Part shown: one piece after another, positions 1 to 13,531 of the stretch
How the letters are laid out: every line of letters starts with the position of its first letter
Position numbering within the stretch: the first letter of the stretch is position 1
DNA from: Halomonas socia
Lineage (GTDB): Bacteria > Pseudomonadota > Gammaproteobacteria > Pseudomonadales > Halomonadaceae
Direction of reading: 5' to 3'
NCBI RefSeq assembly: GCF_010977575.1
Contig: NZ_CP048812.1
Coordinates: forward strand, 4,588,001-4,652,000
DNA: 64,000 nt
Program-made: the position numbers and the translations under genes
Notes under the pieces: model-generated
What the model saw: the letters and a program-made list of their open reading frames with translations, nothing else
What the model was told of the DNA's origin: nothing
Databases searched by the model: none

Positions 1-1
1 C

Positions 2-97
2 CTTGCCTGCCTCCAGAGCAGGTCCATGAATGCGCAGATCATCCACCTAATACAGCGAGGCATGGAGCGTGAACAGGAATCACCGTCCCAGAAATGA
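2..97 (+). CDS. Possible 3' end of a small element gene (partial)
   Basis: A reading frame is open from the window edge to a TGA at 95-97 and contains an internal ATG at 26. From that ATG it would encode a 23-residue peptide; otherwise it is the tail of a gene starting outside the window. A hairpin follows directly at 99-130. No family is recognisable and the stretch is too short to judge, so this is only a candidate. Confidence 0.25.
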   Translation, partial: LACLQSRSMNAQIIHLIQRGMEREQESPSQK

Positions 98-98
98 C

Positions 99-130
99 GA
101 AGCCCCGGCGATGGGGGTCGCCAGGGCTTC
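99..130. terminator. Strong hairpin, possible terminator or transcript-processing site
   Basis: The arms GAAGCCC/GGGCTTC (7 bp) and GGCGA/TCGCC (5 bp) are separated by one C/A mismatch and enclose a six-base loop. There is no T-run downstream, so intrinsic termination is uncertain. The hairpin sits between the possible partial gene at the edge and the first complete small gene, which argues against starting that gene upstream of it. Confidence 0.35.
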
Positions 131-164
131 AACGTCTCATCATCTGCCAATGGATAAAGACACT

Positions 165-425
165 ATGAATCCTACCAATTTGCAGCAGAAACGCAATGCT
201 TCCCGACGCCGGCCCGCCGGCCTGACCCAGCAGCAAGCCGCCGTGATCACGATCGGCCGGCTGCTGATCCCCTATCGCGTGAACGCGCGCCCAGAGCAGC
301 GCGCCGAACTGATCGGCATGGCCAGGATGGCCGCTGCCCTGGGCGCCATCACGCCTGATGAACATGCCCACCTGCTGAGCCTTATCTCAACTGACGCCGC
401 CCCAGCCGCGCCGGAGGTGCACTGA
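165..425 (+). CDS. Small element protein of unknown function (86 aa)
   Basis: This is a small soluble protein with a basic, Gln/Asn/Arg-rich N-terminus followed by two predicted helices (around residues 20-70) and an Ala/Pro-rich tail. No family is recognised. The ATG at 165 is preferred over an in-frame ATG at 150 and an upstream GTG at 69, because the longer version would be translated through the hairpin at 99-130. Its TGA overlaps the ATG of the next gene (ATGA), so it belongs to the same rightward transcript. It is probably an accessory gene of the integrated element; no function is claimed. Confidence 0.55.
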   Translation: MNPTNLQQKRNASRRRPAGLTQQQAAVITIGRLLIPYRVNARPEQRAELIGMARMAAALGAITPDEHAHLLSLISTDAAPAAPEVH

Positions 426-688
426 TGACAACACCCACCTACTTCGGCCTGCTTGCCGAGTTCGATGGCCGCGCCGAGATCCCCCTCGAGGAGGTCGCGC
501 CGAAGTACTTCGGTATCAGCGCCCGCACCGCCGGCAGCCGCGCCGGGGCTCAGGCCCTGCCCGTGCCGGCCTATCGCGCCATGGACTCACAAAAGAGCCC
601 CTGGCTGGTCAGTGCCGGCGACCTCGCCGAGTACCTCGACCGCCGCAAAGCCGAAGCCCGCCAGCACTGGAAAGCCGTCAACGAGTGA
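425..688 (+). CDS. Pyocin activator PrtN-like protein
   Basis: The protein is 87 aa, the usual size of PrtN-family proteins. It has the family layout: an N-terminal segment with FGLLAEFDGRAEIPLEEV, a central helix, a stretch reading LPVPAYR, then SQKSPWLV and a C-terminal DLAEYLDRRKAEA helix. PrtN activates pyocin genes in Pseudomonas, and relatives are common as small activators in P2-like prophages and genomic islands. It overlaps the preceding gene by the ATGA junction and is followed after 10 bp by the next one. The likely role is a DNA-binding activator of element genes. Family assignment is by motif memory, not a search; the target genes are unknown. Confidence 0.7.
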   Translation: MTTPTYFGLLAEFDGRAEIPLEEVAPKYFGISARTAGSRAGAQALPVPAYRAMDSQKSPWLVSAGDLAEYLDRRKAEARQHWKAVNE

Positions 689-698
689 GGAAGCTGCC

Positions 699-1046
699 AT
701 GACAATCAACACCCCACCCCGCCTGATGCCCATATCCACCGCCGGCCCCCGGGGCGAAGCCGCCTTGCTGGTTGACGAAGCGGCCAGCCCCGAAGCGCTG
801 TATCTGGAAGCGGAGTCTCGGCTCAGCGCCGCCAAGGGCATGCTGCTCAGCGCAGCCATTGCCAGTGACTCTGCAGGCATAGAAGGCCAGGACGTTGGCA
901 ATATCGCCCGCGCTGCCGAGACGCTGGCCTCGGATGCCCTGGATCTGATGCATGCCCTCAACCTTGCCCACCTGCGAGCCACCGCCGCGGCTCGACAGCA
1001 CGCGCCCGGCACGGTCCACCACTTCAGCCGGCACCAGGGGGAGTGA
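699..1046 (+). CDS. Hypothetical element protein, DUF3077-like helical fold possible
   Basis: A 115-residue Ala-rich protein. The central part (about residues 25-95) looks like two or three amphipathic helices with regularly spaced Leu/Ala, loosely resembling the small DUF3077-type proteins frequent in Pseudomonas islands. That likeness is weak. The start at 699 is supported by a GTGAGGA ribosome-binding site eight bases upstream; a longer open frame from 453 merely shadows the PrtN-like gene. It lies in the same-strand gene string and its stop is one base from the next start codon. Confidence 0.5.
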   Translation: MTINTPPRLMPISTAGPRGEAALLVDEAASPEALYLEAESRLSAAKGMLLSAAIASDSAGIEGQDVGNIARAAETLASDALDLMHALNLAHLRATAAARQHAPGTVHHFSRHQGE

Positions 1047-1047
1047 C

Positions 1048-1452
1048 ATGCCAGCCCATGACATTGCACCGATCGACTTAAAGGTTCTGGTGAGGGGGCT
1101 TCGCGCGCACGGCATCGCCGCCAGCATGGAAGCCAATCACCTGGCGGGCAGCGGCCATCAGGAGCGCGGCGAGGAATTGGGTGCCGCAGCCCAGGCGCTG
1201 ACCGAGATGGCCAGCGAGCTTGAGGGATGGCGACGCAGCCAGGCCGAGGTGCTGCGCCGTGTGGCGCTGTCCATTACCAAGCAGCGGTTGGCGCTCGCCG
1301 ACTTTGAGCTTCGCGAAGGCCCGGCCATGCGGCCCCGCGAGAAGGTGTACTTCTATCGCGCGGCCAACATCACCAACGGCAGTGCCCTGGTGCTCGAGGC
1401 GCTGGCTCAGCAGCTCGACGCGCGCGATCAGAAGGGTGGCGATCATGATTGA
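1048..1452 (+). CDS. Hypothetical element protein (134 aa)
   Basis: The ATG at 1048 follows a GGGGGAG ribosome-binding site and lies one base after the preceding stop. The protein is mostly helical: helices around residues 30-55 and 60-95, then a basic region and a C-terminal helix ending in a short charged tail. No motif or family is recognised. The gene overlaps the next one by eight bases, typical of a tightly packed phage-like operon. It may be an accessory or early-control protein, but nothing in the sequence decides this. Confidence 0.5.
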   Translation: MPAHDIAPIDLKVLVRGLRAHGIAASMEANHLAGSGHQERGEELGAAAQALTEMASELEGWRRSQAEVLRRVALSITKQRLALADFELREGPAMRPREKVYFYRAANITNGSALVLEALAQQLDARDQKGGDHD

Positions 1453-1879
1453 TGTTATTCACCGCATCGACCGGCCGTTCGCTGTCGGCGTCATCGAGAT
1501 CTACGGCGATCCCAATATGGGCTGGTGGGAGTGGCGCATGCTGGAGCGCGGCGCCGTGATCCACGACACCAAGGAGGCGGGCTACGGCTCGCCCGGGATC
1601 GCCCTGCGCGATGCCTTGAACCACGACGAGCCGCCGCCTGGCGACAACCGCGCGGCCCTGGAGGGGCTGGCCGCCGGGCTTTCCAATCTCGCGCTGCATT
1701 ACTGCCGAATGGCGGCGCATCACGAGATCAAGGCCAAGCCGGTACCGCCCAGCGCGCTCGATGAGGTAGCCAGCAGCATCAGACTGATGCGCTTGCACCT
1801 GCTTGATGCCGTGAGCCACGGCCACGGCATGGCCCAGCAGGTGGCGCGCGTGGCGTTGGTAGGTGGCCATGCCAACTAA
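1445..1879 (+). CDS. Hypothetical element protein (144 aa)
   Basis: Starts at ATG 1445 inside the end of the preceding gene. The N-terminal third (residues 5-60) looks like a small beta-rich module with WWEWRML, which could bind a ligand or partner; the C-terminal two thirds is helical and His-rich. No family is recognised. It overlaps the start of the zinc-finger gene by 11 bases, so the two are probably translationally coupled. Confidence 0.5.
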   Translation: MIDVIHRIDRPFAVGVIEIYGDPNMGWWEWRMLERGAVIHDTKEAGYGSPGIALRDALNHDEPPPGDNRAALEGLAAGLSNLALHYCRMAAHHEIKAKPVPPSALDEVASSIRLMRLHLLDAVSHGHGMAQQVARVALVGGHAN

Positions 1880-2426
1880 GGGCGCCTCGCGGCATGCCGA
1901 CAGGCAGTGCCGCCATTGCGGCAACTACAGCTTGAGAATCAGAACCACGAGGCCGACCGCGGCAGGGGATCAAGTCGCTCACCTGGCATGCAAGGAATGC
2001 GGCCAGAAGTGGCAGATCGACGAAAAGCTCGGCCACCTGGTTAGCCAGTGCCAGTGGTGGTGGCGATGGGCAGGGTACGGCCGGCAGACGCTGCACCTTG
2101 AATATGACGGATGGCCGATCGACATCCAGAGCCGCTACTTGTGCATCCGCAAGCTCGACGATTGGTGGGGGCGAGGCACCGACGCCAGGATGCTCGATCG
2201 CCGCGGCCGCGGCTGGGGGCGTGGGGACGAAACAGGCTGGTTCATCCTGACGGCCAACTATCTGCTACTCGACAAGGCAACGCCAGACAGCAGCAAGCCA
2301 CTTGATCGGCTTATCGCGGAGCTGTTCAACGAGCGCCTCGAGGGGCTTCGAGATAACGATGGCGCCCTTCAGCCTGTTATCACCAGAAATAAATATCGCA
2401 ATAAATCGACAAATAACGATAAATAA
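1869..2426 (+). CDS. Zinc-finger element protein, possible Ogr/Delta-type late activator
   Basis: The protein is 185 aa. Residues 14-44 form a four-cysteine zinc site, C14-x2-C17 and C41-x2-C44, separated by 23 residues. P2 Ogr and P4 Delta, the activators of P2 late promoters, have a similar site with about 22 residues between the cysteine pairs, although their second pair is C-x4-C. The rest (45-185) is longer than in Ogr and rich in Trp and Arg, so this is at best a divergent relative. The ATG at 1869 is chosen over an in-frame GTG at 1863. The last dozen codons are AT-rich and Asn/Lys-rich, unlike the rest of the gene, because they run into the repeat-rich region upstream of alpA. Other DNA-binding zinc-ribbon roles are possible. 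Confidence 0.5.
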   Translation: MPTKGASRHADRQCRHCGNYSLRIRTTRPTAAGDQVAHLACKECGQKWQIDEKLGHLVSQCQWWWRWAGYGRQTLHLEYDGWPIDIQSRYLCIRKLDDWWGRGTDARMLDRRGRGWGRGDETGWFILTANYLLLDKATPDSSKPLDRLIAELFNERLEGLRDNDGALQPVITRNKYRNKSTNNDK

Positions 2427-2454
2427 AAAGCGCCACACACCAATAAATAACGAC
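2386..2454. repeat. AT-rich island with iteron-like ATAA repeats
   Basis: In an otherwise GC-rich region this 70-base stretch carries short related repeats of the form ATAA(AT)nCG: near 2388, 2401, 2413 and 2447. ATAACGA itself occurs at 2413-2419, 2447-2453 and once further upstream at 2353-2359. The array overlaps the end of the zinc-finger gene and leads into three palindromes. It could be a regulator-binding array, a promoter region or a replication origin for the nearby Rep protein; the sequence does not discriminate. Confidence 0.4.
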
Positions 2455-2488
2455 TTGTTGTAAGAACCCGAATTCCTACAACAAGTCG
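2451..2488. promoter_or_regulatory. Perfect 12-bp inverted repeat upstream of alpA
   Basis: CGACTTGTTGTA at 2451-2462 is exactly inverted at 2477-2488, with a 14-base spacer. There is no T-run, so it reads more as a protein-binding site or cruciform than a terminator. It is the first of three palindromes before the AlpA-type gene. Confidence 0.5.
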
Positions 2489-2510
2489 GGATGAAATCGC
2501 TTGAAACCTC

Positions 2511-2564
2511 GATCATCATGATCATTACCAGCAGCAAATCAGGCCAAACTTAGCCTTAGGCTAA
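2511..2564. promoter_or_regulatory. Two compact palindromes in the alpA leader
   Basis: GATCAT-C-ATGATC at 2511-2523 (6-bp arms) and TTAGCCT-T-AGGCTAA at 2550-2564 (7-bp arms, one-base centre) are near-perfect short dyads typical of operator sites. They lie 37-90 bases upstream of the alpA start codon, where a repressor or autoregulator of the element would act. The binding protein is unknown. Confidence 0.5.
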
Positions 2565-2600
2565 ATAAGGCAGACAGCGCCGAAAGCTCAGGAGACAGCA

Positions 2601-2858
2601 GTGGATCAGGACGCCACTAACCACCCTAAGCGGCTGATGCGTTGGCCGGAAGTCGAGAGGTTGACCGGGATATCACGCGCCACGCTGTCGAGCATGAGCG
2701 GGCGCGGAGACTTCCCCAAGCCGGTACAGGTTTCCGTTCACATCACCGCATTTCTAAGTCACGAAGTACTCGAGTGGTTTGACGGATTAGAGAGTCGCCG
2801 AGTCGATTACTCACCCAAGCGGTTCAAGTCAGCAGACCCCAAAGGAGATACGCCATGA
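2601..2858 (+). CDS. alpA: AlpA-family transcriptional regulator
   Basis: An 85-residue MerR-like winged-helix protein with the AlpA signature: RLMRWPEVERLTGISRATL (helix-turn-helix, residues 10-28), then GDFPKPVQVS, and the C-terminal EVLEWFDGLESRR helix. AlpA proteins are small activators or excisionase-like factors of P4-type satellites and genomic islands, often acting on integrase or excision genes. The start is GTG at 2601, chosen because it follows a good CAGGAGA ribosome-binding site; there is no closer in-frame ATG. Its stop overlaps the next ATG. It sits just after a palindrome-rich control region and probably opens a second transcription block that includes the replication gene. 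Confidence 0.8.
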   Translation: MDQDATNHPKRLMRWPEVERLTGISRATLSSMSGRGDFPKPVQVSVHITAFLSHEVLEWFDGLESRRVDYSPKRFKSADPKGDTP

Positions 2859-3073
2859 AACTTGTCAACGTCGAGATCGGGGGGCTGCCGTATGAGTTCA
2901 CCGAAGATGAAGCAGTGGAGCTTTACACATCACTGCACGCGGGTTTATCGAGCGCCGGCATTAACGTGAAAAAGCTCAAGGCGCGGTCTGCTGCCAAGCG
3001 GCACAGCAAGATGAATCGCGACGGCGGTGATATCGCCTTTTTCGGCCAATGGCCTGTACAGACCGACTGCTGA
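2855..3073 (+). CDS. Small element protein of unknown function (72 aa)
   Basis: ATG overlaps the alpA stop (ATGA) and is preceded by GGAGATACGCC. The first 40 residues look like a small beta-beta-alpha unit with EFTEDEAVELYTSL; the rest is basic. No family is recognised. It is probably co-translated with alpA. Confidence 0.5.
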   Translation: MKLVNVEIGGLPYEFTEDEAVELYTSLHAGLSSAGINVKKLKARSAAKRHSKMNRDGGDIAFFGQWPVQTDC

Positions 3074-3083
3074 GGGAAGCGCA

Positions 3084-3287
3084 ATGGCAAAGCGAGTCAT
3101 CACACTGAGCATCGGCGCCGAGCGGGTCACCTTCTACGCCGGCGACTGGCCCGCGATCAAGGAGGCGGTAAGGAAGGCGATCACCACCGAGGGCGAGTGG
3201 CATAGCGCAAGAGGGCGGCGCGAAATTCCGAAGGCAGTCGGCTTCACGGTTGCCGATGAAAGCAAGCTGGCGAAGGCCAAGGTGTGA
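3084..3287 (+). CDS. Small element protein of unknown function (67 aa)
   Basis: ATG 3084 follows a GAGGGAAG ribosome-binding site and lies 10 bp after the preceding stop. The protein is small, basic and probably alpha/beta, with ITLSIGAERVTFYAGDW at the N-terminus. No family is recognised. An upstream in-frame ATG at 3027 would overlap the previous gene more and lacks a ribosome-binding site. Confidence 0.5.
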   Translation: MAKRVITLSIGAERVTFYAGDWPAIKEAVRKAITTEGEWHSARGRREIPKAVGFTVADESKLAKAKV

Positions 3288-3288
3288 C

Positions 3289-3605
3289 ATGAGCACAAAA
3301 AGGAAAGCCCCCGAGTTCGCCAGAATCCCAAGGGGGCCAAACCGAATGGTTCCGACGCAAAGACTAGCACAGCCCCTGGGCTGCGCAACCCTTTGCCGGG
3401 TTCGGTGGCGCACGAGGGGCTTTCTGAGCTGCATCACTGCCATGCCTGCCACTGCTTCGCCCTGCTGGTGGAGGTCGCTGCCCTGGTACAGGAAGACCGC
3501 CTTACTGGCGACGACATGCCAGCCCAGCAGGTTATCGAGGAGGTCGAGACAGCCACGCTGAAGGCCTTCGATCGACTCGATCAGCCTGGGGAGCGCTGCC
3601 CATGA
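3289..3605 (+). pseudogene. Small element gene, apparently frameshifted
   Basis: The natural start is ATG 3289, one base after the preceding stop, but that frame soon becomes Arg/Cys/Trp-rich and unlike its neighbours. The -1-shifted frame from about 3330 to 3605 reads as a sensible protein ([24 protein letters not shown], then an acidic helix) and its TGA overlaps the ATG of the replication gene. Adding one C to the CCC run near 3327-3329 joins the two frames into a 105-residue protein. A TTG at 3393 is an alternative start for a 70-residue product. No family is recognised. The single-base defect resembles the others in this window. Confidence 0.45.
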
Positions 3606-6064
3606 CGGCGATGCATCTGCCACTCATGGTGCAGGCTGCCCGCGAGGTTGAGCAGACGCTCGGCACACCGGAGTGCCGGGCATTCCGTCGCCGCATCTTC
3701 GCGCGCTTTCCGCTGGTCGCCAGCGACCTGGTGCGCGGGGTGGTGGCGGTAGCTGCCGCCCATGGGCAAGGCAATCACGGCAACGCCAAGGCGAATACCT
3801 GGCTTCGCATCATGGTGAAGCAGCTCACCTTGGGGCCTTATAACACCACCTGGGATGATCAGGCTCTCGAGGATTACGCCCTGATCAAAGCCGAGCGAGT
3901 CGCGGCCGAGCTGGGGAGGCTTGGCCGCGAAGCCGATCGCGCCTTCGCCGCCACTTGCCGCCGCTACTTCTGGCAGCCGCGCCGCGCGGCTGGCCTCGAC
4001 CTCTGTGGACTCCACTTTCAGCGCCATGCCTGGCCCAGCCGCCGTGATGCCGAACTTGAGGCGCTGCGCGACGCACTTGAGAAGGCCCACAAGCACCACC
4101 TCGACATCGACCCACCCGACGAACTCGAGCGGCTGAGCCGAAACCAACGGGCCTCGCTGCTGAAGAAGCTGAGCGCCGAGCCTTGGTGGCGCCGCAAGCT
4201 GCGCACCGCGGCCACTCGCCGGCTCGACCAGTTCAAGCGCCTGGTGCGCCGGGTACACAAGCGTGCCGAGATCTATCTGTCCAACATCGCCTTCGACCGC
4301 TGGCAGCACCGCCAGGCGGCCAGTCGCGTGATTCTTGAGGGCACCACCGCCGTCAACCAGTTCGACCAGGAGCTGACCCTCGCCGAGCTCGCCGCCAGCG
4401 GCCAGGCTAACCCCAAGCACCGCTATGCCGAGATGATGCTCAGGGTGCGAGAGACCGAAGCCTTTGGACGCCGCGCCGGGCACTGTGGTGTGTTCGTGAC
4501 CTGGACGCTCCCCAGCGCCTTCCACTCGGTGCTCGAGAAGAACTCGACCCCGAACCCCAAGTACAACGGCGCCACGCCGCGCGAGGCACACCGCCAGCTG
4601 GGCAAGCTGTGGGCGCGCACCCGGGCCAAGCTGAAGCGCGATGGCATCGAGTGCTACGGGGTTCGTGTTGCCGAGCCTCACCACGACGGTACGCCCCACT
4701 GGCACCTGCTGCTGTTCGTCGCTGCCGACCAGCTCGACCAGCTCAAGGGCACCCTCCTCCGCTATGCGCTCTCCCTGGATCCCGAGGAGGTCGCCGGCCG
4801 CGAGCATCACCGCATCCGCTTCGAGGAGATCGACCCCGCCAAGGGCAGCGCCGCCGGCTACGTCGCCAAGTACATCGGCAAGGCCATCGCCGGCGCGGCA
4901 CATGCCGATGATGTTGACCTCTACGGCAACGCGATGGACGTGGCCTCCTCTCGCATCGAGGCGTGGGCCTCGGTGCATGGCATCCGCCAGTTCCAGTTCA
5001 TGGGCACCCCCAGCGTGACCGTATGGCGGGAGCTGCGCCGCCTGCGCGACAAGGAAGCCGACCCCTACGCCGCCGCCAGCTTCGAAGACTGGGTGGCCGC
5101 CACCCGGCCTGACCCCGAGGCGCTGGCCATCCTGGAGGATCTGCGCCGCGCCGCGGATGCCGGCGACTGGTTCAAGTATCTCGATCATATGGGCGGTGTT
5201 GGTATTCCCGCCGCTGAGCGCCCTGCCCGCCCCTGGCGGCTTCCTCGCCTCGACACCAAGGCCCCCGCCATGAACCCCGAAACCGGCGAGGTGCGAGCAG
5301 GCATCGAGAAACACGGCATTTATGGCGAGACCGTCAAGGCCACATTTGGCGTGGTCGTTGCCAGCGAGACAGGGCAGTCGGAGTTTTTGACGCGCTTCTA
5401 CCGCTGGGAAGTGAAGCCCGGCGCGGCAGCGCAGGGCCAGCGCAGCGGCGAAGCCGCGAGCACTTGGAGTCCTGAGAATAACTGTACGCCCCTCGATATC
5501 GAGCCACATAAGCCCGGCCCGAAACAGGCCAGTGATCAGGAAAAACGCTACCGAGAATGGCGAGCCAGCCCCGACGTCAGGGCCGAAATGGAAGGCCTCG
5601 AGGAGTATGAAGGCCGATTGAGAGCCGCCATGCGGAGAAAATTCACTCAGCAAGCAGAGTGGCGCGTCCCTGAGTACTTCCCGCCTGAGCTGGAGGGCCT
5701 CGAGGAAGTCGCCGAGGCCCCAGAAGATCAGGCGCCCGAGCCTCAGCACCCCGTTACCCACGAGTCGCAGGCCCTATGGCGCTTGCTGACCTCGAGTGAC
5801 AAGGCCAGCAAGCGCGCCGAGCTAGGCATCGACGCTGAATTGGCGCTGAACTTGGCGTCGATGTACTTCGAGCCACCCCGAGAACGCCAGGAACGCTTGA
5901 CCTGGTCGAGCCTGATGCTCGCTATCAACCGCAAGCGCATGCACGGCCGCCACGGCGGGCCGATGGATGCCGATGAGGCGATGCTGATCGCCGCTGCCCT
6001 GTGGGAAGCCCCCAACCCAGCTGAACCTTTACCCCAACGCACCACCTGGAGCACTGCTGCATGA
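3602..6064 (+). CDS. P2 gpA-like HUH replication endonuclease
   Basis: An 820-residue protein of the phage replication gene A family, slightly longer than P2 gpA (about 760). It nicks one strand at the origin and stays linked to the 5' end to start rolling-circle replication. The HUH metal motif is HWH at 366-368, in the context [13 protein letters not shown]; the paired catalytic tyrosines are Y420 and Y424 (GYVAKYIGK), matching the Y-x3-Y of P2 gpA. The N-terminal 350 residues are helical and basic; the C-terminal region (about 600-820) is more variable and charged. The start overlaps the stop of the preceding small gene, and the stop overlaps the next start. The catalytic core looks intact, so the element may still replicate. 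Confidence 0.9.
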
Positions 6065-6759
6065 CCACCACCCACGAGCACTTCACCAAAGTGACAGAGA
6101 ACTACCTCGCCACGCGCGACAAGCTGGAAAAGGCTGCCGCCAGGCTGCAGAGGCTGCAAGAACAGCGTGCCGCTACCCTGCAAAGCCGCCGCGACGCGGG
6201 CCAGCGCTGGCGTCAACTCTTCAAGGAGGGTGACGGCGCCGCCGGCAAGGAGGTACGCAACCTCCAAGCCGAGGAGAGCACCCTGGCCAGCGAAGTCGAG
6301 CAGCTCGACGAGCTGATCGGCGAGCTTAAGCCCCATGTCGACGAGCTCCGGCACTGGGCCGGCGAGCTCCGGCAACAGCACGTTCACGCCCTGAGAACCA
6401 CCCGTAGAGAAGTGGCCGCCCGGCGGCTTTCCGACGCCCTCGATGCAGTTTTCAACAAGCCAGAGGGTCAAGAGCTGCTTCAGGCGCTGGCTCTACGCGC
6501 CACGAGCCTAAATGCCGAGGTGATCGAAGATTCAGTCTTCATGGCAGGCCTAGGATTTGATGCCCACGAGTCTGCCATGTCGGGCTTCATGGCAAAGATT
6601 GCCGCAGCCGATCGCGCTGCCATCACCAGAGAGGTCAAGAGACGCAAAAAGGCCTTGATCGCAGACGCGGCAGGCCAGCGGCTGGCCCGCCTGGAAGGAA
6701 GCGCCTCATTCGAAGGTGATCTCGCCTCACCTATCGCCGCCCTTCTCTGCGAGCGCTGA
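6061..6759 (+). CDS. Coiled-coil protein between rep and capsid genes
   Basis: A 232-residue protein. Residues 10-120 form a long predicted coiled coil (LEKAAARLQRLQEQRA, then LQAEESTLASEVEQLDELI); the C-terminal half is a compact helical domain. It starts at the ATGA overlap with rep and ends 25 bp before the capsid gene. A coiled-coil protein directly before a P2-type capsid gene could be a scaffold, a size-redirecting factor or a capsid decoration protein. The layout (coiled coil then helical domain, about 200 residues) is reminiscent of P4 Psu, the polarity suppressor and capsid-decorating protein, but I see no decisive Psu signature. Function is inferred from position only. Confidence 0.55.
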   Translation: MTTTHEHFTKVTENYLATRDKLEKAAARLQRLQEQRAATLQSRRDAGQRWRQLFKEGDGAAGKEVRNLQAEESTLASEVEQLDELIGELKPHVDELRHWAGELRQQHVHALRTTRREVAARRLSDALDAVFNKPEGQELLQALALRATSLNAEVIEDSVFMAGLGFDAHESAMSGFMAKIAAADRAAITREVKRRKKALIADAAGQRLARLEGSASFEGDLASPIAALLCER

Positions 6760-6784
6760 TAACCATCACTAATAGGAAATCACC

Positions 6785-7801
6785 ATGCAAAACGCTACAC
6801 GTGAAGCATTCAACCAATTGATGGCCCGTATCGCCGAGCTCAACGGGGTGCGTGACGCCACTCAGGCTTTCAATGTTGCCCCCAGCATCCAACAGTCGCT
6901 GGAAACCCGGATTCAGGAGAGCTCAGCTTTTCTGAGCCAGGTGAATGTCGTCGGCGTCGACGAGGCGAGAGGGCAGCGCATAGGGATGGGGGTATCTGGC
7001 TCCGTTGCCAGGCGCACCAACACCGAACTGCATGACCGCGAGCCTCAAGATGTGTCGGATACACAAGTCTTCGAGTACGCCTGCGAGAGCATCGAGTTTG
7101 ACACCTATATCACCTGGGCGCAGTTGGATGCCTGGGCCAAGTTCCCCGACTTCCAGCGGCGCGTGCGCGATATGTTGGCCCAGCAGCAGGCACTCGACCG
7201 CCTGACGATCGGCTTCAACGGTGTGAGCGCCGCCGGCCATACCGACCGCGACGCAAACCCACTACTCGAGGACGTGAACAAGGGGTGGCTTCAGGTGTTT
7301 CGTGAACATGCCCCAGAGCGAGTGCTTTCCGAAGGTGCCAGCGGTGGAGAGGTACGCATTGGCCCCGGCGGCGACTACCAGAATATCGACGCCATGATCT
7401 TCGATGTAGTCAGCGAACTGATCGAGCCCTGGCACCGGGAGTCCCCCGAGCTTCGCGTGATCGCAGGGCGGCGATTGATCGCTGACAAGTATTTTTCGAT
7501 TGCCGAGATACATGCCAAAACACCGAGCGAGGCGGTGGCCATGGATATGCAGGCGAGTAATGCCCGCTTTGGTGGCCAAGTCGCCATAAGGGTGCCAGGT
7601 GTGCCCGAGAACAGCCTGTTCATAACCCCACCGAGCAACCTGTCGATCTACTGGCAGCGTGGAAAGCGCCGCCGCTTCCTGATCGACAACCCCAAGCGCA
7701 ACAGAGTCGAGAGCTACGACACCTCGAATGAAGCGTATGTGATCGAGGACTTCGGCGCTGGCTGCTTGGTCGAGAACGTGGTGTTCGGCGAATGGGCGTG
7801 A
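6785..7801 (+). CDS. P2 gpN-like major capsid protein
   Basis: A 338-residue protein (P2 gpN is 357) of the P2-family major capsid proteins. It opens with MQNATREAFNQLMARIAELNG, continues with TQAFNVAPSIQQSLETRIQE, has the VNVVGVDEARGQRIGMG segment, and ends with an RFLIDNPKRNRVESYDTSNEAYVIEDF block, all typical of this HK97-fold family. No premature stop or shift is seen. In P2 this gene is flanked by scaffold/protease (O) and terminase (M); here it is flanked by a coiled-coil protein and a 136-residue protein. A TAGGAAATC ribosome-binding site precedes the ATG. Confidence 0.92.
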   Translation: MQNATREAFNQLMARIAELNGVRDATQAFNVAPSIQQSLETRIQESSAFLSQVNVVGVDEARGQRIGMGVSGSVARRTNTELHDREPQDVSDTQVFEYACESIEFDTYITWAQLDAWAKFPDFQRRVRDMLAQQQALDRLTIGFNGVSAAGHTDRDANPLLEDVNKGWLQVFREHAPERVLSEGASGGEVRIGPGGDYQNIDAMIFDVVSELIEPWHRESPELRVIAGRRLIADKYFSIAEIHAKTPSEAVAMDMQASNARFGGQVAIRVPGVPENSLFITPPSNLSIYWQRGKRRRFLIDNPKRNRVESYDTSNEAYVIEDFGAGCLVENVVFGEWA

Positions 7802-7814
7802 CCATCTGAAGCCA

Positions 7815-7840
7815 CCCCCGCTGGACAGTACAGTCGGGGG
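7815..7840. other. Hairpin between capsid and next gene
   Basis: CCCCCG at 7815-7820 pairs with CGGGGG at 7835-7840, extended by CTG/CAG inside. It follows the capsid stop by 14 bases and has no T-run. It may protect or process the capsid message, or attenuate the genes after it. Confidence 0.4.
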
Positions 7841-7857
7841 CACACAGTGGAGGAAAC

Positions 7858-8268
7858 ATGGAACCGAGAGAGGCAAAAGCAAAGAGCCCGCGAGCCAACT
7901 ACATGGCATGTCGCCGCAGGTGTAAGAAGCTCCAAAGCGGCCAGGCCAGGCTTGATAGGGCGATTGATCGGTATGTGTCACGCGCTGAAAAGGGCTGTGC
8001 TCCAGCAAATGCAAACCTGGAGGAGCTTCTCGAGATGCGCGATAAGGCCGAGACCCTGATGCAGCTTCTGCAGCTCGACGCCTGGGAAGCAAGAAATGCC
8101 TGCATACATAGCGGGGTAGTGACGCCCAACGCACACCGCAGTGAGGGCGAAGGATTCCACGGGAGAACGCCTACCGAACTGAAAGCGCTCCGGCATCGCC
8201 TTGAGTCAGAGAATGACGCTTGCACTGCAGAGCTGCTGACTCAGGGGATGACAAAGGGGAGTAACTGA
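7858..8268 (+). CDS. Hypothetical element protein between capsid and tape measure (136 aa)
   Basis: ATG 7858 follows a good TGGAGGAAAC ribosome-binding site. The protein is helical and basic in its first 80 residues, with four cysteines spread along the chain (CRRRCKK near residue 20, CAP near 47, then NACIH). No zinc-site spacing stands out. It occupies a position where P2-like phages have head-completion or tail genes, but it matches none I know. One base separates it from the tape-measure gene, so the two are probably coupled. Confidence 0.5.
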   Translation: MEPREAKAKSPRANYMACRRRCKKLQSGQARLDRAIDRYVSRAEKGCAPANANLEELLEMRDKAETLMQLLQLDAWEARNACIHSGVVTPNAHRSEGEGFHGRTPTELKALRHRLESENDACTAELLTQGMTKGSN

Positions 8269-8269
8269 C

Positions 8270-10810
8270 ATGGCCAAGGGGCTCGACCTACGGGTCACAC
8301 TATCCGCTATCAACAAGGCCACCGGGCCACTCAGGCAGATCCTAGAAGGCAGCCGCGGCGCCGGCCGCGCGATCCGCGAGACCCGCGACCAGCTGCGCGA
8401 CCTCAACACCCAGCAGCGCCGCATCACCGCCTTCCGCGACATGTCGCGCCAGAGCCACGACACCCGCCGCGCGCTGATGGACAAGCGCGAGGAACTGCGT
8501 CAGATCTCCCGGCAGTTGGAGACCACCGAAGGCCCGACCCGCCGGCTCACCCAGCAGCAGGAAAGCGCCCAGCGCGAGATCGATAAGCTCACCCGCGAGT
8601 ATCGTCAGCAGCGCGACAGCGTGCGCGACCTGGCCCGCGAGCTACCCCCCGGCATTGAGGGCGCCCGGGGGCTTACTGAACAGAACGATGCCCTCGCCCG
8701 CCAGATCGAAGAGACCAACCGCCGCCTCGACGCTCAACGCGATGCCCTGGGACGCCTGGGCCGCGCCGATGTGGGCGGCAAGTTCCGCAACATGACCGGC
8801 GAGATCAGGAAGTTCACTCGCAACGTCACCCTGGCCGGCGGCCTTGCCGCGGGTACCGTGTTTGGCCTGGCCAACTCCACCGCCACCCTAGGCGACGACG
8901 TCGCCAAGACTGCCGACCTGATGGGCGTTGGCACCCACGAGCTGCAGGAAATGCGCTACGCCGCCGAGCGCGCCGGGCTAAGCACCGACACCCTGGATGG
9001 AAGCATGCAGCGCATGGTGCGCCGCACTGGACGTGCCGCCCAGGGCGGCGGCGCTGCCGCCAAAGCCTATGAAGAGCTGGGCATCAACGCCCGCGAGCTG
9101 GCCGACATGTCACCTTCTCAGGCCCTCGACGTGGTCGCCGATCGGCTCCATGACATCGACAACCAGACCGACCGCATCGCCTACGCCTCCGCCATCTGGG
9201 GCAACAACGGCGAGGCCATGCTGAACATGATCCAAGGCGGCTCTGATGCGCTAGGTGATTACTACGCCCAGGCCCGGTCGATCGGCCATGTGCTCGGCGA
9301 CGGCGCGGTACGTGATGCGGAAGACTTCCAAGACGCCCTGCTCGACAACCAGCTGACCATGCGCGGCATGCGACACACCATCGGCGCCGAGCTGATGCCC
9401 TCGGTGACCGATCTGATGCGCACGATGACCGGCTGGATGCAGGAAAACCGCCATCAGGTGCAGGAGTTCGCCCGCGATCTCGGCGAGGGACTCAAGGCCG
9501 CCGTGCCTATCGTGCAAGACCTGGTCGTTGGCGGCTGGCGTCTGGCCAGGGCCATTGGCGCCGGCATTGATCGCGTCGCCGACATGGTGGGCGGCTACGA
9601 CAACCTGGCCATGGTGGTCGGCACGCTGTTCGCCAGCAAGATGATCTTGTCGGTGATCAGCTTCGGCATCGCCCTGGTCAAAGCCGGCGCGGCGCTGGTT
9701 GCCTTCGCCAAGACCCTGCCGGCCCTTGCCGGCGGCTTCAAGGTTCTGTCGGCCGCGTTCGCCGCCACTCCCATCGGCTGGCTGATCGCCGGTATCACAG
9801 CCCTGGTCTACGCCGGGTACCTGCTATGGAAGAACTGGGGCGACCTGGGTAACCAGTTCCGCAACATCGGCACCCAGCTCAGAGACGCCTGGAGCGAAGG
9901 GCTGGGCGCCGTCACTAGGCTCATCCTCGACTGGACGCCCTTGAACGCTCTCTACCGCGTCATCATCGGCGCCCTGGAGACGCTCGGTGTCGATATCCCT
10001 GACGAGTTCCGCACCTTTGGCGGCTTTATCGTCGATGGCCTGATAGGTGGCATTCTCGGCGGCATCCAGAGCGCTATCGATGCGGTAAAGGATCTGGGGC
10101 GCTCGATCGCTGACGGCTTCAGGAACATGCTGGACATCAACTCGCCGTCGAAGGTGTTCGAAGGCTTCGGTACGAATATCGTCGAGGGGATTATTGGCGG
10201 TATCGGCGGCATGGCCGGCGCCTTGAAAGATCATGTCGTGGGCCTGGCCGGCGACATTGCCAGCTGGATGTCAGATGCTGTGGGCAACGCCTGGGAATCA
10301 GGCAAGGACATTGCCAGCGGCCTCGGCCAAGGCATTCGCAACGGGGCCAGCAACGTGGCAAGCCGCGCGGGCGACCTGGCCAACGAGACCATCGGCGTGA
10401 TGCGCGGGCTGTTCAAGACCAACTCACCTTCGCGCGTGTTCCGCGATATCGGCATGGACGTTACGGCAGGGCTGAGCCAGGGCATTCAGCGCACCCAGAA
10501 CCAGCCGATCGGCCAGGCCAGCGGCATGGCCAAGCAGGTCAGGGATCTGGCCGGCGGGCTCATGCTGGGCAGCGCTGCCGTCGCATCGCCGGCAGCCGCC
10601 AATCTAAGCATCGACAGCCGCCCGCCCATGGCCGCCCAGGCAGCCGGCGGCATGAGTATCAGCATCGGTGATATCCATGTGCATGCCGCGCCGGGGATGG
10701 ATGAGCAGGCCGTAGCCCACTACGTCGCCGCCGAGGTGCAAAGGCTGTTCGAGCAAAGGCTACGCGACGAGCAAGCAAAAAGACGAAGCGCTTTCTACGA
10801 TATCGACTAA
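8270..10810 (+). CDS. Phage tail tape measure protein, P2 gpT-like
   Basis: An 846-residue protein (P2 gpT is 815). Residues 1-170 are a long charged coiled coil. Residues 180-330 hold the conserved family domain with DDVAKTADLMGVGTHELQEM, MSPSQALDVVADRL and IWGNNGEAML. A hydrophobic stretch (about 440-520) follows, with ALVAFAKTLPALAGGF and PIGWLIAGITALVYAGYLLW. The C-terminal part has two copies of the NSP-S/R-VF turn (from residues 624 and 718), each followed by a Gly/Ile-rich segment. The family sets tail length and is delivered with the DNA. It is complete, although no tail tube, sheath or baseplate gene is in the window. Confidence 0.9.
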   Translation: MAKGLDLRVTLSAINKATGPLRQILEGSRGAGRAIRETRDQLRDLNTQQRRITAFRDMSRQSHDTRRALMDKREELRQISRQLETTEGPTRRLTQQQESAQREIDKLTREYRQQRDSVRDLARELPPGIEGARGLTEQNDALARQIEETNRRLDAQRDALGRLGRADVGGKFRNMTGEIRKFTRNVTLAGGLAAGTVFGLANSTATLGDDVAKTADLMGVGTHELQEMRYAAERAGLSTDTLDGSMQRMVRRTGRAAQGGGAAAKAYEELGINARELADMSPSQALDVVADRLHDIDNQTDRIAYASAIWGNNGEAMLNMIQGGSDALGDYYAQARSIGHVLGDGAVRDAEDFQDALLDNQLTMRGMRHTIGAELMPSVTDLMRTMTGWMQENRHQVQEFARDLGEGLKAAVPIVQDLVVGGWRLARAIGAGIDRVADMVGGYDNLAMVVGTLFASKMILSVISFGIALVKAGAALVAFAKTLPALAGGFKVLSAAFAATPIGWLIAGITALVYAGYLLWKNWGDLGNQFRNIGTQLRDAWSEGLGAVTRLILDWTPLNALYRVIIGALETLGVDIPDEFRTFGGFIVDGLIGGILGGIQSAIDAVKDLGRSIADGFRNMLDINSPSKVFEGFGTNIVEGIIGGIGGMAGALKDHVVGLAGDIASWMSDAVGNAWESGKDIASGLGQGIRNGASNVASRAGDLANETIGVMRGLFKTNSPSRVFRDIGMDVTAGLSQGIQRTQNQPIGQASGMAKQVRDLAGGLMLGSAAVASPAAANLSIDSRPPMAAQAAGGMSISIGDIHVHAAPGMDEQAVAHYVAAEVQRLFEQRLRDEQAKRRSAFYDID

Positions 10811-10830
10811 CGTCAGGAGGATTCAGAACA

Positions 10831-10868
10831 GCCCTGCCGCACTCACCTGAGCGCGGCAGGGCTTTTTT
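10831..10868 (+). terminator. Intrinsic terminator after the tape measure gene
   Basis: A perfect 10-bp stem, GCCCTGCCGC at 10831-10840 and GCGGCAGGGC at 10853-10862, is followed by six T residues (10863-10868). It lies 20 bases after the tape-measure stop and closes the rightward operon. Confidence 0.93.
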
Positions 10869-11322
10869 GCATCCAGAGTGTGCCCAGAGCGCCCAACTAG
10901 CGCCACACAGGGCAGCCAGCGAGACGCGCCGCGCTGCCAAAGCTTGCCCGAAACACAGCGAGAACGCCTTCCAGAGAGCCAGTAGGGGCCAATATACGGC
11001 ATATGCTAGAGGCTACCGCCCAGGGGCTGAGCCGCGCCGTCCCCTCCCCGCCTCCGCTGCTCGCTTGGCACTATTTTCTTCATGCAGCGGGAGCCAAAGC
11101 GGGCAATGCAGAAGCTGCGGGACTGGAGGCATTTCAGGGGGAGCATGGAAACGTGCGGAATTATGCAGAAAGCAACAGGGAAATAAGCGCCAAAATACAC
11201 CGATCAGCACAACAGCAGAAAATCAGGTTGATTATTCATGCCAAGGCAGCTGAAAACCCTGGACAACACTGCAAAAGGCACCAAGGCGATCAGCATCCAG
11301 TCAGGAAGGCAGGGCCATGAGA
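10869..11322. other. Stretch with no convincing gene
   Basis: About 450 bases between the terminator and the 3' end of the integrase gene. The open frames here have poor codon usage and no ribosome-binding sites. No clear repeat, tRNA or known non-coding RNA was recognised. It may be a remnant of genes deleted from a larger prophage, or hold regulatory RNA that I cannot see. Confidence 0.4.
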
Positions 11323-12390
11323 TCAACCGCCTGACGGGCGTAACTTCAGGTTCTCCGGCCGGAGGTGCGTGTAGCGTTTCAGCACGTCCCAGCTCTCGTG
11401 GAGGGTGAACTGCTGAACCTCGATGATCTCGTAACCAGCTTCGAACAGCCTTGAGGTGGCTTCGTGGCGGAGATCATGGAAGCGGAGGTCTTCAATACCG
11501 CAGGCCGCCGTGGCCGCCTGCCACCGCGTGCCGATCGAGGCCGGGCGGAAGGGGAAGATGCGGTCTTCGCCCTGGGCGCGTGGCTGCCGCTTGATGATGG
11601 CCATCGCCTCACTGGTCAGCTTGAACTGCCTATGATTGCCCAGCTTCTGCCGCGGATGCTTGGCATCACGTACCCAGCAGGCCGAAGCCGACTCATCGAG
11701 ATCTGACCAGAGCAACCGGGTGATCTCCTCTCGGCGTCGAGAGGAAGCGATAGCGAAGTCCATGATGTCTTCCATCGGGATGATCGCACTCGGCCGGATC
11801 TTCTGGGAGCGCTGGAAGTAGGCCCGCAGCCGTTCGATCTCGGCCAGCGTTGGCCGGCGGTCTCTCGACTTGGATTTACCGATCAGGCCCTTGGAGCGCA
11901 GCAGCAGCTTGGCCGCCTCGAACTCACTCAGGTCCACCGGCATTTTCCAGGCGGCCACGGCCGTCTTCAGGATGATGCCCAGCCAGACGATGTCCTGGTT
12001 AATCGTGGCCGGCTTGACGCCGCTGTTCCTGCGCATCACCCCGTGCTCGATGATCTGCTGGCTGGTCAGCTCGGTGATCATCACCCGCGCGATCGGGAAG
12101 CGCTGCAGTTGCTCGATCGTCGCCCGCTTGGAGCGGCCCGCGTCCCGGGCAAAATCTTGCAGGTAGCGCTCTATGGCATTGTCCAGGGTGACCCCTCGCC
12201 ACTGTGCCGACAGAATCCCACCGGGGGCGCTGAGCTCCAACTCGCGGCGCTTCGCCCACTCGTCGGCCATGGCCTTCCTGGGGAACGTCCGCGACTCGGA
12301 GTGGTCAGGTTGACCACGCCGCGCGATGCGGATCTGCGCCAGGTATGAGAAACTGCCGTCCTTTTTTCGACGCTTCCGTATCGTCGCCAT
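11323..12390 (-). CDS. int: Tyrosine-type integrase of the dusA-targeting kind
   Basis: A 355-residue tyrosine recombinase. The N-terminal 60 residues are a basic arm-binding-like domain (MATIRKRRKKDGSFSYLAQI); a core-binding helical domain follows, then the catalytic domain with R220 (SRRREEI), H305 and R308 (HDLRH), H331 and the nucleophile Y340 (KRYTHL). The ATG at 12390 is preferred over an upstream in-frame ATG at 12522, since the extra 44 residues overlap the attachment region and dusA and are unlike integrase. The gene points away from dusA and lies about 100 bp from its start, as in the known group of integrases that insert elements into the 5' end of dusA. All catalytic residues are present, so excision is plausible. 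Confidence 0.92.
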   Translation of the reverse strand: MATIRKRRKKDGSFSYLAQIRIARRGQPDHSESRTFPRKAMADEWAKRRELELSAPGGILSAQWRGVTLDNAIERYLQDFARDAGRSKRATIEQLQRFPIARVMITELTSQQIIEHGVMRRNSGVKPATINQDIVWLGIILKTAVAAWKMPVDLSEFEAAKLLLRSKGLIGKSKSRDRRPTLAEIERLRAYFQRSQKIRPSAIIPMEDIMDFAIASSRRREEITRLLWSDLDESASACWVRDAKHPRQKLGNHRQFKLTSEAMAIIKRQPRAQGEDRIFPFRPASIGTRWQAATAACGIEDLRFHDLRHEATSRLFEAGYEIIEVQQFTLHESWDVLKRYTHLRPENLKLRPSGG

Positions 12391-12402
12391 GCGAACTCCC
12401 CC

Positions 12403-12488
12403 ATGTACCAAATTGCCGGCGCCCTGTGTGCCAATTATGTACCAACATGCGGCGGAAAACAGGGCAAAACCACTGTAAATATGTACTG
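12403..12488. repeat. Direct repeats of ATGTACCAA, candidate integrase arm sites
   Basis: ATGTACCAA occurs at 12403-12411 and 12437-12445, and a partial copy ATGTACTG at 12481-12488. They lie between the integrase start and dusA, where arm-type integrase or excisionase sites would be expected. Alternatively they are operator repeats controlling int or the hybrid dusA promoter. Confidence 0.4.
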
Positions 12489-12490
12489 TA

Positions 12491-13531
12491 ATGGCAGATA
12501 AGGCAACCGCTATAAACCGCATGAATACTGAAACTGCGCCACCTGAGCTAGATAGAACCTTCTCCGTCGCGCCGATGATGGATTGGACTACCCGCGACTA
12601 CCGCGCCTTTGCGCGGACCCTAACGCGTCGCGCACTGCTGTATACCGAGATGGTTACCACCGGGGCGCTGATCCACGGCAGCCCGCGGGAGCGCTTCCTG
12701 GGCTTCGATGACATCGAGCACCCGCTGGCGCTGCAGCTGGGCGGTAGCGACCCCGGCGAACTCGCTGAATGTGCGGCGATTGCCGAAGAGTGGGGCTACG
12801 ACGAGGTCAATCTCAACGTCGGCTGCCCCAGCGACCGGGTGCAGAACAACCTGATCGGCGCCTGCCTGATGGGGCATCCGCACAAGGTGGCGGCGGCAAT
12901 CAAGGCAATGCAGGCGGCGGTATCGATCCCGGTCACCGTCAAGTGCCGGATCGGCATCGACGACCAGGACGAGGACGCCGACCTGGCGCGCTTCATCTCA
13001 ACGGTGGCGGATGCCGGCTGCGAGGTGTTCATCGTCCACGCGCGCAAGGCGTGGCTGCAGGGGCTCTCGCCCAAGGAGAACCGCGACGTGCCGCCGCTCA
13101 ACTACCGGCGGGTACAGCGCCTCAAGCAGCAGCACCCCGCGCTGCATATCGGCATCAACGGCGGCATCAAGACGCTGGATGAGTGCCGCAAGCACCTGGC
13201 GCGGGTCGACAGCGTGATGGTCGGTCGCGAGGCGTACCAGAACCCCTGGCTGCTGGCCGGCGTGGACAAGGCGCTCTACGGCGAGCCTGGCCCGGCAACC
13301 AGCCGCCACGCCGCCGCGCGGGCCTTCCGCCCCTATATCGCCCGGCGGCTGGAGGAAGGCGCCAAGCTCAACCACATCACCCGTCACCTGCTGGGGCTGT
13401 TCCAGGGCCAGTCGGGGGGGCGCCGCTTTCGCCGCCATCTCTCCGAACACGGCCACCTCGACGGTGCCTGCCTGCGGGTGTTCGACGACGCCCTCAGCCT
13501 GGTGCCCGAGCGAGCCGCGCTCAGCGCCTGA
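12491..13531 (+). CDS. dusA: tRNA-dihydrouridine synthase A
   Basis: A 346-residue FMN enzyme that reduces uridine in the D-loop of tRNA. Family features are VAPMMDWTTRDYR at the start of the barrel, LQLGGSDP, the catalytic cysteine in NVGCPSDRVQ (residue 112 from this start), KCRIGIDD, HARKAWLQGLSPKENR (a DusA hallmark) and GREAYQNPW. The ATG at 12491 is first in frame; an ATG at 12521 is also possible. The first 20 or so codons have element-like composition and come from the inserted DNA, so the gene is a hybrid with a new 5' end and probably a new promoter. The full family length suggests function is kept. Confidence 0.93.
   Translation: MADKATAINRMNTETAPPELDRTFSVAPMMDWTTRDYRAFARTLTRRALLYTEMVTTGALIHGSPRERFLGFDDIEHPLALQLGGSDPGELAECAAIAEEWGYDEVNLNVGCPSDRVQNNLIGACLMGHPHKVAAAIKAMQAAVSIPVTVKCRIGIDDQDEDADLARFISTVADAGCEVFIVHARKAWLQGLSPKENRDVPPLNYRRVQRLKQQHPALHIGINGGIKTLDECRKHLARVDSVMVGREAYQNPWLLAGVDKALYGEPGPATSRHAAARAFRPYIARRLEEGAKLNHITRHLLGLFQGQSGGRRFRRHLSEHGHLDGACLRVFDDALSLVPERAALSA
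12560..12595. other. Probable right attachment site inside dusA
   Basis: Elements with this integrase type insert into the early dusA codons and rebuild the reading frame. The sequence encoding SVAPMMDWT here is the first conserved dusA block and the likely core. Composition shifts at about this point: bases 12,480-12,560 are much less GC-rich than the rest of the gene. The left copy of the core is not in the window. Exact edges cannot be set from this sequence alone. Confidence 0.45.

Follow-up and report, generated by a model that had tools for sequence, protein, structure and literature searches.

A probable P2-dependent phage satellite in Halomonas socia with its own capsid and tape-measure genes, and its relatives in Halomonadaceae

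The 64,000-nucleotide stretch of Halomonas socia DNA analysed here (the window; assembly GCF_010977575.1, contig NZ_CP048812.1, positions 4,588,001 to 4,652,000) contains most of an element integrated at dusA that is very probably a satellite dependent on P2-like phages. The best reading is that the element is P4-like in its logic, as indicated by a Sid-like scaffold gene, a cos-like packaging site and an AlpA-like regulator, yet carries a P2-type rolling-circle Rep and exchangeable structural cassettes. A full-length Rep of the same lineage occurs in five genomes of the bacterial family, always directly followed by a Sid-like gene. We consider it likely that these elements form a Halomonadaceae family of integrative satellites of P2-like myophages, whose members share a core and have exchanged virion cassettes.

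The dusA element and its family

The genome is a single 4.75-Mb contig, and the left flank of the window is therefore readable. The second copy of the dusA core, attL (G000:C1:4586432-4586464), lies 1,569 bp to the left of window base 1 and is identical to attR at 33 of 33 bases. Because both sites are located, the length of the element can be given as 14,123 bp. The initial annotation had described a dusA-integrated element without packaging genes in view, and the description holds for the full element, left flank included. Searches by tblastn with queries from the P2-like phage vB_HboP_4908 (E up to 1e-3) detect no portal, no terminase subunit of either kind, and no scaffold, head completion, lysozyme, baseplate, sheath, tube, E, U or D gene in the element; counterparts of this phage are limited to gpN, the tape measure and Rep. 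For portal, protease, connector and terminase proteins of families outside the P2 type, this negative extends to those proteins of the element that were compared with Pfam and PHROGs. The genes reported earlier, from the AlpA-like regulator to the integrase, are all in place with open frames, and the terminator is also located:

Left end outside the window, 1.57 kb (locus L003, 6594-8094): HicA, HicB, an Arc/ribbon-helix-helix (RHH) repressor (minus strand) and a small RHH-like gene
425-688, plus strand: excisionase-like protein (phrog_1300, 8.3e-23)
1863-2426, plus strand: C4 zinc-finger protein, possibly Ogr/Delta-like (weak)
2601-2858, plus strand: AlpA-like regulator (PF05930, 3.4e-10)
3602-6064, plus strand: P2 gpA-type rolling-circle Rep of the satellite lineage (PF05840, 1e-69), with HWH at residue 366 and Y-x3-Y (YVAKY) at residue 420
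6061-6759, plus strand: Sid-like external capsid scaffold, the coiled-coil gene, with a predicted role in size determination (fold and profile likeness to P4 Sid)
6785-7801, plus strand: gpN-type major capsid protein (PF05125, 9e-129)
7858-8268, plus strand: 136-aa helical protein, found only next to satellite tape measures
8270-10810, plus strand: gpT-type tail tape measure of 846 aa (phrog_28, 2.5e-52, and other tape-measure families)
About 10829-10865, plus strand: Rho-independent terminator ending the cargo operon (fold of 10811-10875: -39.7 kcal/mol, z -7.7)
11035-11082, minus strand: putative cos-like packaging site (P2-phage cos profile, 6.8 bits)
11323-12522, minus strand: tyrosine integrase (PF00589, 1.9e-17)
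12555-12587, plus strand: attR, 33-bp core, within dusA (12491-13531)

The zinc-finger protein reaches an hhalign probability of 58.7% against an Ogr set of only three sequences and has no Pfam Ogr_Delta match. The terminator is not among the results of a simple terminator scan. At the attL end, the element carries a HicA/HicB toxin-antitoxin pair (L003 6594-7204), and the small RHH-like gene (L003 7939-8094) was identified by eye from the sequence.

The Rep query has matches in 59 of the 275 genomes of the bacterial family that were searched. A full-length Rep of the same lineage, at 60-100% identity, is found in five: the window genome, G064, G011, G012 and G046. The four Reps outside the window genome are 60-74% identical to that of the window, and the next-best Reps are partial and at most 51% identical. 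At the order level 48 of 390 genomes matched, with no full-length match outside the family. The core shared by the five elements comprises an excisionase, AlpA, the P2-type Rep, the Sid-like scaffold and a helper-type cos, with a dusA integrase in four of the five. The integrase is 73-83% identical in three other satellites; the excisionase-like protein is 84-87% identical in three of the other four and 34% identical in the remaining one.

Of the gene order singled out in the initial annotation, the Rep and Sid-like core is present in four other genomes, and the cassette behind this core varies. The window element has gpN, the 136-aa gene and the tape measure. In G064, gpN (73% identity) is accompanied by an S protein for tail completion (223 aa; PF05069, 1.1e-25), and G046 has gpN (77%) and a 127-aa protein with HAD/polynucleotide-kinase-like matches. 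G011 and G012, which are two species, have the 136-aa gene (40%) and a 944-aa tape measure, without gpN. By identity the G046 Rep is closest to the G012 Rep (76%), whereas the G046 gpN pairs with the window gpN in a tree (92/84); because these relationships disagree, the modules have probably been reassorted. Four of the five elements are bounded by att sites and span 13.1-14.1 kb. The G064 element measures 13,066 bp (28-bp repeat, 27 matches), and those of G012 and G011 measure about 13,390 bp (20- and 14-bp repeats).

The strongest evidence that these elements move as a unit is the sequence comparison of G011 with G012. Across 13,391 aligned positions the two elements have 149 differences (98.89% identity), whereas their flanks are only 88.0% and 89.3% identical, and the identity changes abruptly at the att sites. 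This contrast argues that the element moved as a unit. Between the two copies, Rep has 10 nonsynonymous and 6 synonymous differences, and the tape measure has 14 and 47, respectively.

Packaging site, scaffold, capsid and tape measure

A G-rich site beyond the portal gene is common to 18 of 21 P2-like phage regions. A cos profile was built from these 18 regions alone, with satellites excluded. The filter for phage sites required TTTAG or GAAGA immediately before the G-rich core; L222-L224, which have no passing site, were left out. In all five satellites the best match to the profile is a minus-strand site that follows the last cargo gene and precedes int where that gene is present. The scores are 74.3 bits in G011 and G012, 38.6 in G046, 24.1 in G064 and 6.8 in the window, and none of 1000 dinucleotide shuffles of each gap reaches the score of its satellite. 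In the control genomes, the profile ranks the annotated cos first in P2 (32.5 bits, next -13.5) and the genome end first in P4 (22.4 bits, next 4.5). No position in the host part of the window scores above -14.0 bits, and the 528,172 background positions, taken from other Rep loci and phage tail regions, all stay below 6.8 bits (maximum 4.6). A site of 58-71 bits is found in 11 of 16 P4-like loci. The putative window site is diverged yet above background, and its core is found in one IMG/VR contig, L242.

The gene between Rep and gpN was initially called simply a coiled-coil protein. The gene is present, and its predicted product resembles P4 Sid, a scaffold that shrinks capsids, more than Psu, to which its first match pointed. 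Its PHROG match, phrog_6165 (3e-9), has a Psu-like label, which P4's own Sid also bears in the P4 record. P4 Sid is described as Psu-like in fold; its stem spans residues 11-137 and is the longer of the two (PMC7552001). The predicted model of the window protein (predicted local distance difference test, pLDDT, 82.7; 4-row alignment) has long helices at residues 2-56 and 63-131, with another helix further on, at 182-210. In a Foldseek search of a PDB library of 350,542 chains, the top match of this model is P4 Sid (7jw1_E, probability 1.00, template modelling scores 0.54 and 0.53). In hhalign comparisons, the profile of the halomonad family reaches 78% and a score of 40.4 against Sid (maximum of 100 shuffled Sid sequences, 19.9), compared with 4.7% and 23.2 against Psu (maximum of its shuffles, 21.5). 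A hidden Markov model of the family gives 4.7e-6 for P4 Sid and 53 for P4 Psu. Psu is disfavoured as the identity of this gene because both profile and fold prefer Sid. Searches by phmmer with Sid, Psu and two satellite types detect only one Sid/Psu-type gene in the element. The Sid-like gene is present in 34 of the 275 family genomes, including the five elements, and the protein has no match in IMG/VR scans, which start from short peptide patterns.

The three satellite gpN proteins form one clade (100/100, stem 0.58) in a tree of 32 gpN rows. Compared among themselves, they have nonsynonymous rates (dN) of 0.14-0.19 and synonymous rates (dS) of 0.89-1.04, and the dN/dS ratio of about 0.16-0.19 indicates that their sequences are under purifying selection. 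The proteins are full length and include the N-terminal arm that is described as removed by gpO in P2. Of the 21 satellite-specific changes, three (P2 positions 210, 214 and 219) fall within the 'sir loop' of P2 (183-224), which is described as touched by Sid, and D206 and Y207 are conserved. On balance, we favour the view that satellite gpN forms the shells of the element.

The tape measure has full-length relatives in P2-like phages, and the window protein aligns with phage homologues over residues 1-846. Tape-measure matches occur in 108 of the 275 genomes, and the best loci were fetched. Besides the window locus, neighbouring P2 tail genes are found in 41 of 41 loci examined among these best loci (some from the same genome, in two collections), so these close relatives were rejected as further satellites. 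A quick tree of 52 rows indicates at least two separate origins for satellite tape measures, with that of the window sister to the tape measure of IMG/VR contig L007 (69%), the nearest relative found for it. L007 (IMGVR_UViG_3300037502_003009) is a 4-kb P2-like fragment in which an S-like tail-completion gene (3286-3933) lies between the tape measure and U. This gene is the closest relative found of the G064 S gene (49% over nearly full length). Because L007 carries both genes, two satellites hold relatives of neighbouring genes from one phage lineage. To judge from these sequences, the L007 lineage may be a donor or helper.

The 136-aa gene was sought in 226 of the family genomes and is present in three, exactly those whose satellites have tape measures. 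It stops one base before the tape-measure start, the position that E/E' occupies in P2. The predicted model has four helices (pLDDT 80), and a fold search with it gives nothing at 0.001; the protein has no match in phage records or in an IMG/VR scan that starts from short peptide patterns. The initial annotation had read the element as the satellite of a P2-like helper that supplies its own tail-length ruler. The cos sites in five elements, the Sid-like gene, the gpN clade and the recent transfer strengthen the first part of that proposal, and the second, that the tape measure is built into tails, stands as a tentative suggestion.

Proposed life cycle and alternatives

In the proposed life cycle, a P2-like phage would infect the cell or be induced, and the element would then excise and replicate by rolling circle. 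The Sid-like protein would drive the element's own gpN, together with the scaffold/protease and portal of the helper, into small T=4-like shells, and the helper terminase would package element DNA from cos. The particle would be completed by helper tails assembled around the satellite tape measure, with the 136-aa protein perhaps acting as a partner or chaperone. The size of the element fits: the ratio of the element to vB_HboP_4908 (14.1/38.6 kb, 0.37) is near that of P4 to P2 (11.6/33.6, 0.35). It is possible, though we would not yet favour it, that the resulting particles are chimeric, joining a satellite shell, tape measure and satellite-only partner to the portal, terminase, tube, sheath and baseplate of the helper, and that single helper genes are traded as cassettes. 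The Ogr motif TTGT-N12-ACAA has no exact match in the five satellites, but the annotated activator sites of P2 are likewise inexact, so this absence carries no weight either way.

Several observations weigh against the satellite reading. No particle or transfer has been seen. The combination of gpN, the 136-aa gene and the tape measure occurs in one genome only, that of the window, among the genomes searched, and in G046 the element ends were not found and a matching integrase was not seen. Apart from the elements' own gpN, none of the five carrier genomes yielded a P2-type capsid gene; no resident helper is therefore evident, and one would have to come from outside. The cos site of the window is the weakest of the five (6.8 bits against 24-74 in the others), and its core, with up to one mismatch, has no match in other genomes of the 275. 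Moreover, three of the 21 phage regions have no site that passes the filter, and five of the 16 P4-like loci lack a cos site of the strength found in the rest. The resemblance to Sid is weak in sequence, and Psu too exceeds all 100 of its shuffles, though by far less; the Foldseek E value for 7jw1_E is only 0.15, with nothing at or below 0.001, and the fold is elongated and helical. Finally, the differences that separate the tape measures of G011 and G012 are concentrated at 11.5-12.5 kb. They were likely imported by recombination with another copy, and the argument for selection on the tape measure is weakened because of this.

A rearranged or decaying P2-like prophage, in which Rep, N and T came together through a chance deletion, is very improbable. 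The structural genes are all of the P2-phage kind, and the exact set in the window is unique in the data, which would suit such an origin; however, the core recurs in five of 275 genomes, att is perfect, and cos lies in one fixed place. The gpN proteins form a satellite-only clade with a long stem, the 136-aa gene was found only in these satellites, a Sid-like gene is present, and a copy of a relative has been moved horizontally. Terminase, portal, tail and lysis genes to the left would have indicated an ordinary prophage, and absence of the gene block elsewhere a single deletion, as the initial annotation had pointed out. The flank up to the other dusA copy holds only HicA/HicB and ribbon-helix-helix genes; genes for packaging, tails or lysis are absent from it, and the block recurs. 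An ordinary prophage was rejected on the content of this flank and the recurrence of the core.

The virion genes might instead be weapons, with gpN, the tape measure or S acting as decoys that poison helper assembly and have no part in satellite particles. Partial and variable cassettes (gpN; gpN and S; the 136-aa gene and tape measure) could be expected of interference parts. Each alone builds nothing. Satellites are described as interfering with helper reproduction (PMC10803314), and decoy virion proteins are a conjecture. We regard such a role as improbable, because gpN keeps its full length and N-terminal arm under purifying selection, the tape measure aligns with those of phages from end to end, and gpN has as its neighbour a gene for a Sid-like scaffold (Sid binds gpN in P4). 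Somewhat less improbable, though still unlikely, is that the satellite's own tape measure serves DNA delivery rather than tail length, through an altered injection channel or escape from the superinfection exclusion of helper lysogens. The lengths of the open frames of its phage relatives bracket its 846 residues, and any effect on tail length would therefore be slight; the quick tree suggests that the two satellite tape-measure lineages were acquired separately. The proposal is a sub-case of the satellite reading and overlaps with it.

Known satellites and other loci in Halomonadaceae

P4 reportedly borrows and shrinks the shell of its helper, and cf-PICIs are said to bring a whole head. The present elements would be an in-between family that retains packaging by the helper and swaps the capsid subunit or the tape measure singly, which suggests a route to capsid-forming satellites. 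If the reading is true, this tape measure would be the first in a satellite that lacks the other tail genes, going by the literature searched; no satellite with its own tape measure was found there, judged by titles and the starts of abstracts, in a literature whose subscription papers are mostly outside coverage. The reason for a parasite to have its own tail ruler, whether assembly, delivery or exclusion, becomes testable. In addition, the cos profile and the Sid-like family can be used to find P2-dependent satellites far from Enterobacterales.

Recognized satellite families include P4-like elements, PICI, cf-PICI, PLE, PICMI, VEIME and Tycheposon (PMC11389934). With P4 and P4-like satellites, the window element shares integration with att sites, AlpA, a Sid-like scaffold, a helper-type cos, lack of a terminase, and a size of about one third of the helper genome. 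In contrast, P4 replicates with the alpha primase-helicase rather than a P2-type gpA Rep, has a separate Psu gene where the window element has a single Sid/Psu-type gene, and lacks gpN, tape measure and S, of which these elements bring gpN and/or a tape measure or S. Because alpha-type replication genes are absent, the element is better described as a P2-dependent satellite variant than as a P4-like member proper. The cf-PICIs, which average 14 kb (PMC10803314) and encode capsid, protease, portal, connectors and terminase (PMC10690885), likewise have their own major capsid protein and need helper tails; from that set, however, the element has the capsid gene alone, and it has a tail gene as well. 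MulchRoom and MiniFlayer, two Streptomyces satellites, are described as having their own capsid and packaging sets and lacking key replication genes, with a tail-fibre gene in MiniFlayer (PMC10690885). They too are satellites with structural genes, whereas the present element has its own replication and borrows packaging. PICMIs bring no capsid remodelling genes (PMC10803314). The P2-like phages of Halomonadaceae, such as vB_HboP_4908 (38.6 kb) and L007, are the source of gpN, the tape measure, the S-like gene, the Rep type and cos. Apart from the L007 fragment, these phages are complete, with a tail operon FI-FII-E-T-U-D, and the element differs from them in lacking portal, terminase, scaffold and lysis genes.

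Other P2-type Rep loci are also found in the family. In 11 Halomonadaceae loci (L209-L219), P2 structural genes were not matched in the stretches fetched. These loci were rejected as family members because they have no Sid-like gene and no cos, and they are possibly another kind of Rep-bearing element. In a further group among 80 loci (L156, L164, L177, L181, L182, L184-L186, L191, L196, L198, L199, L207 and L208), a P2-type Rep is followed by X, lysis, baseplate and tail genes. No head genes were matched between them in these partial contigs, and such genes may lie elsewhere or be missing.

P4-like satellites appear to be common in Halomonadaceae (L111, L114-L128), and the same Sid-like gene is present in them. 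Counting L111, the Toprim and DUF927 genes of L111 are found in 16 of 16 such loci and its integrase in 15 of 16; none of these three is found in the five elements (for the L111 integrase, no window match at 1e-10). L111 (G128:C4) itself is a P4-like satellite with two Sid/Psu-type genes (oriented positions 7471-8583 and 9519-10424), one nearer to the window type and the other nearer to the G012 type.

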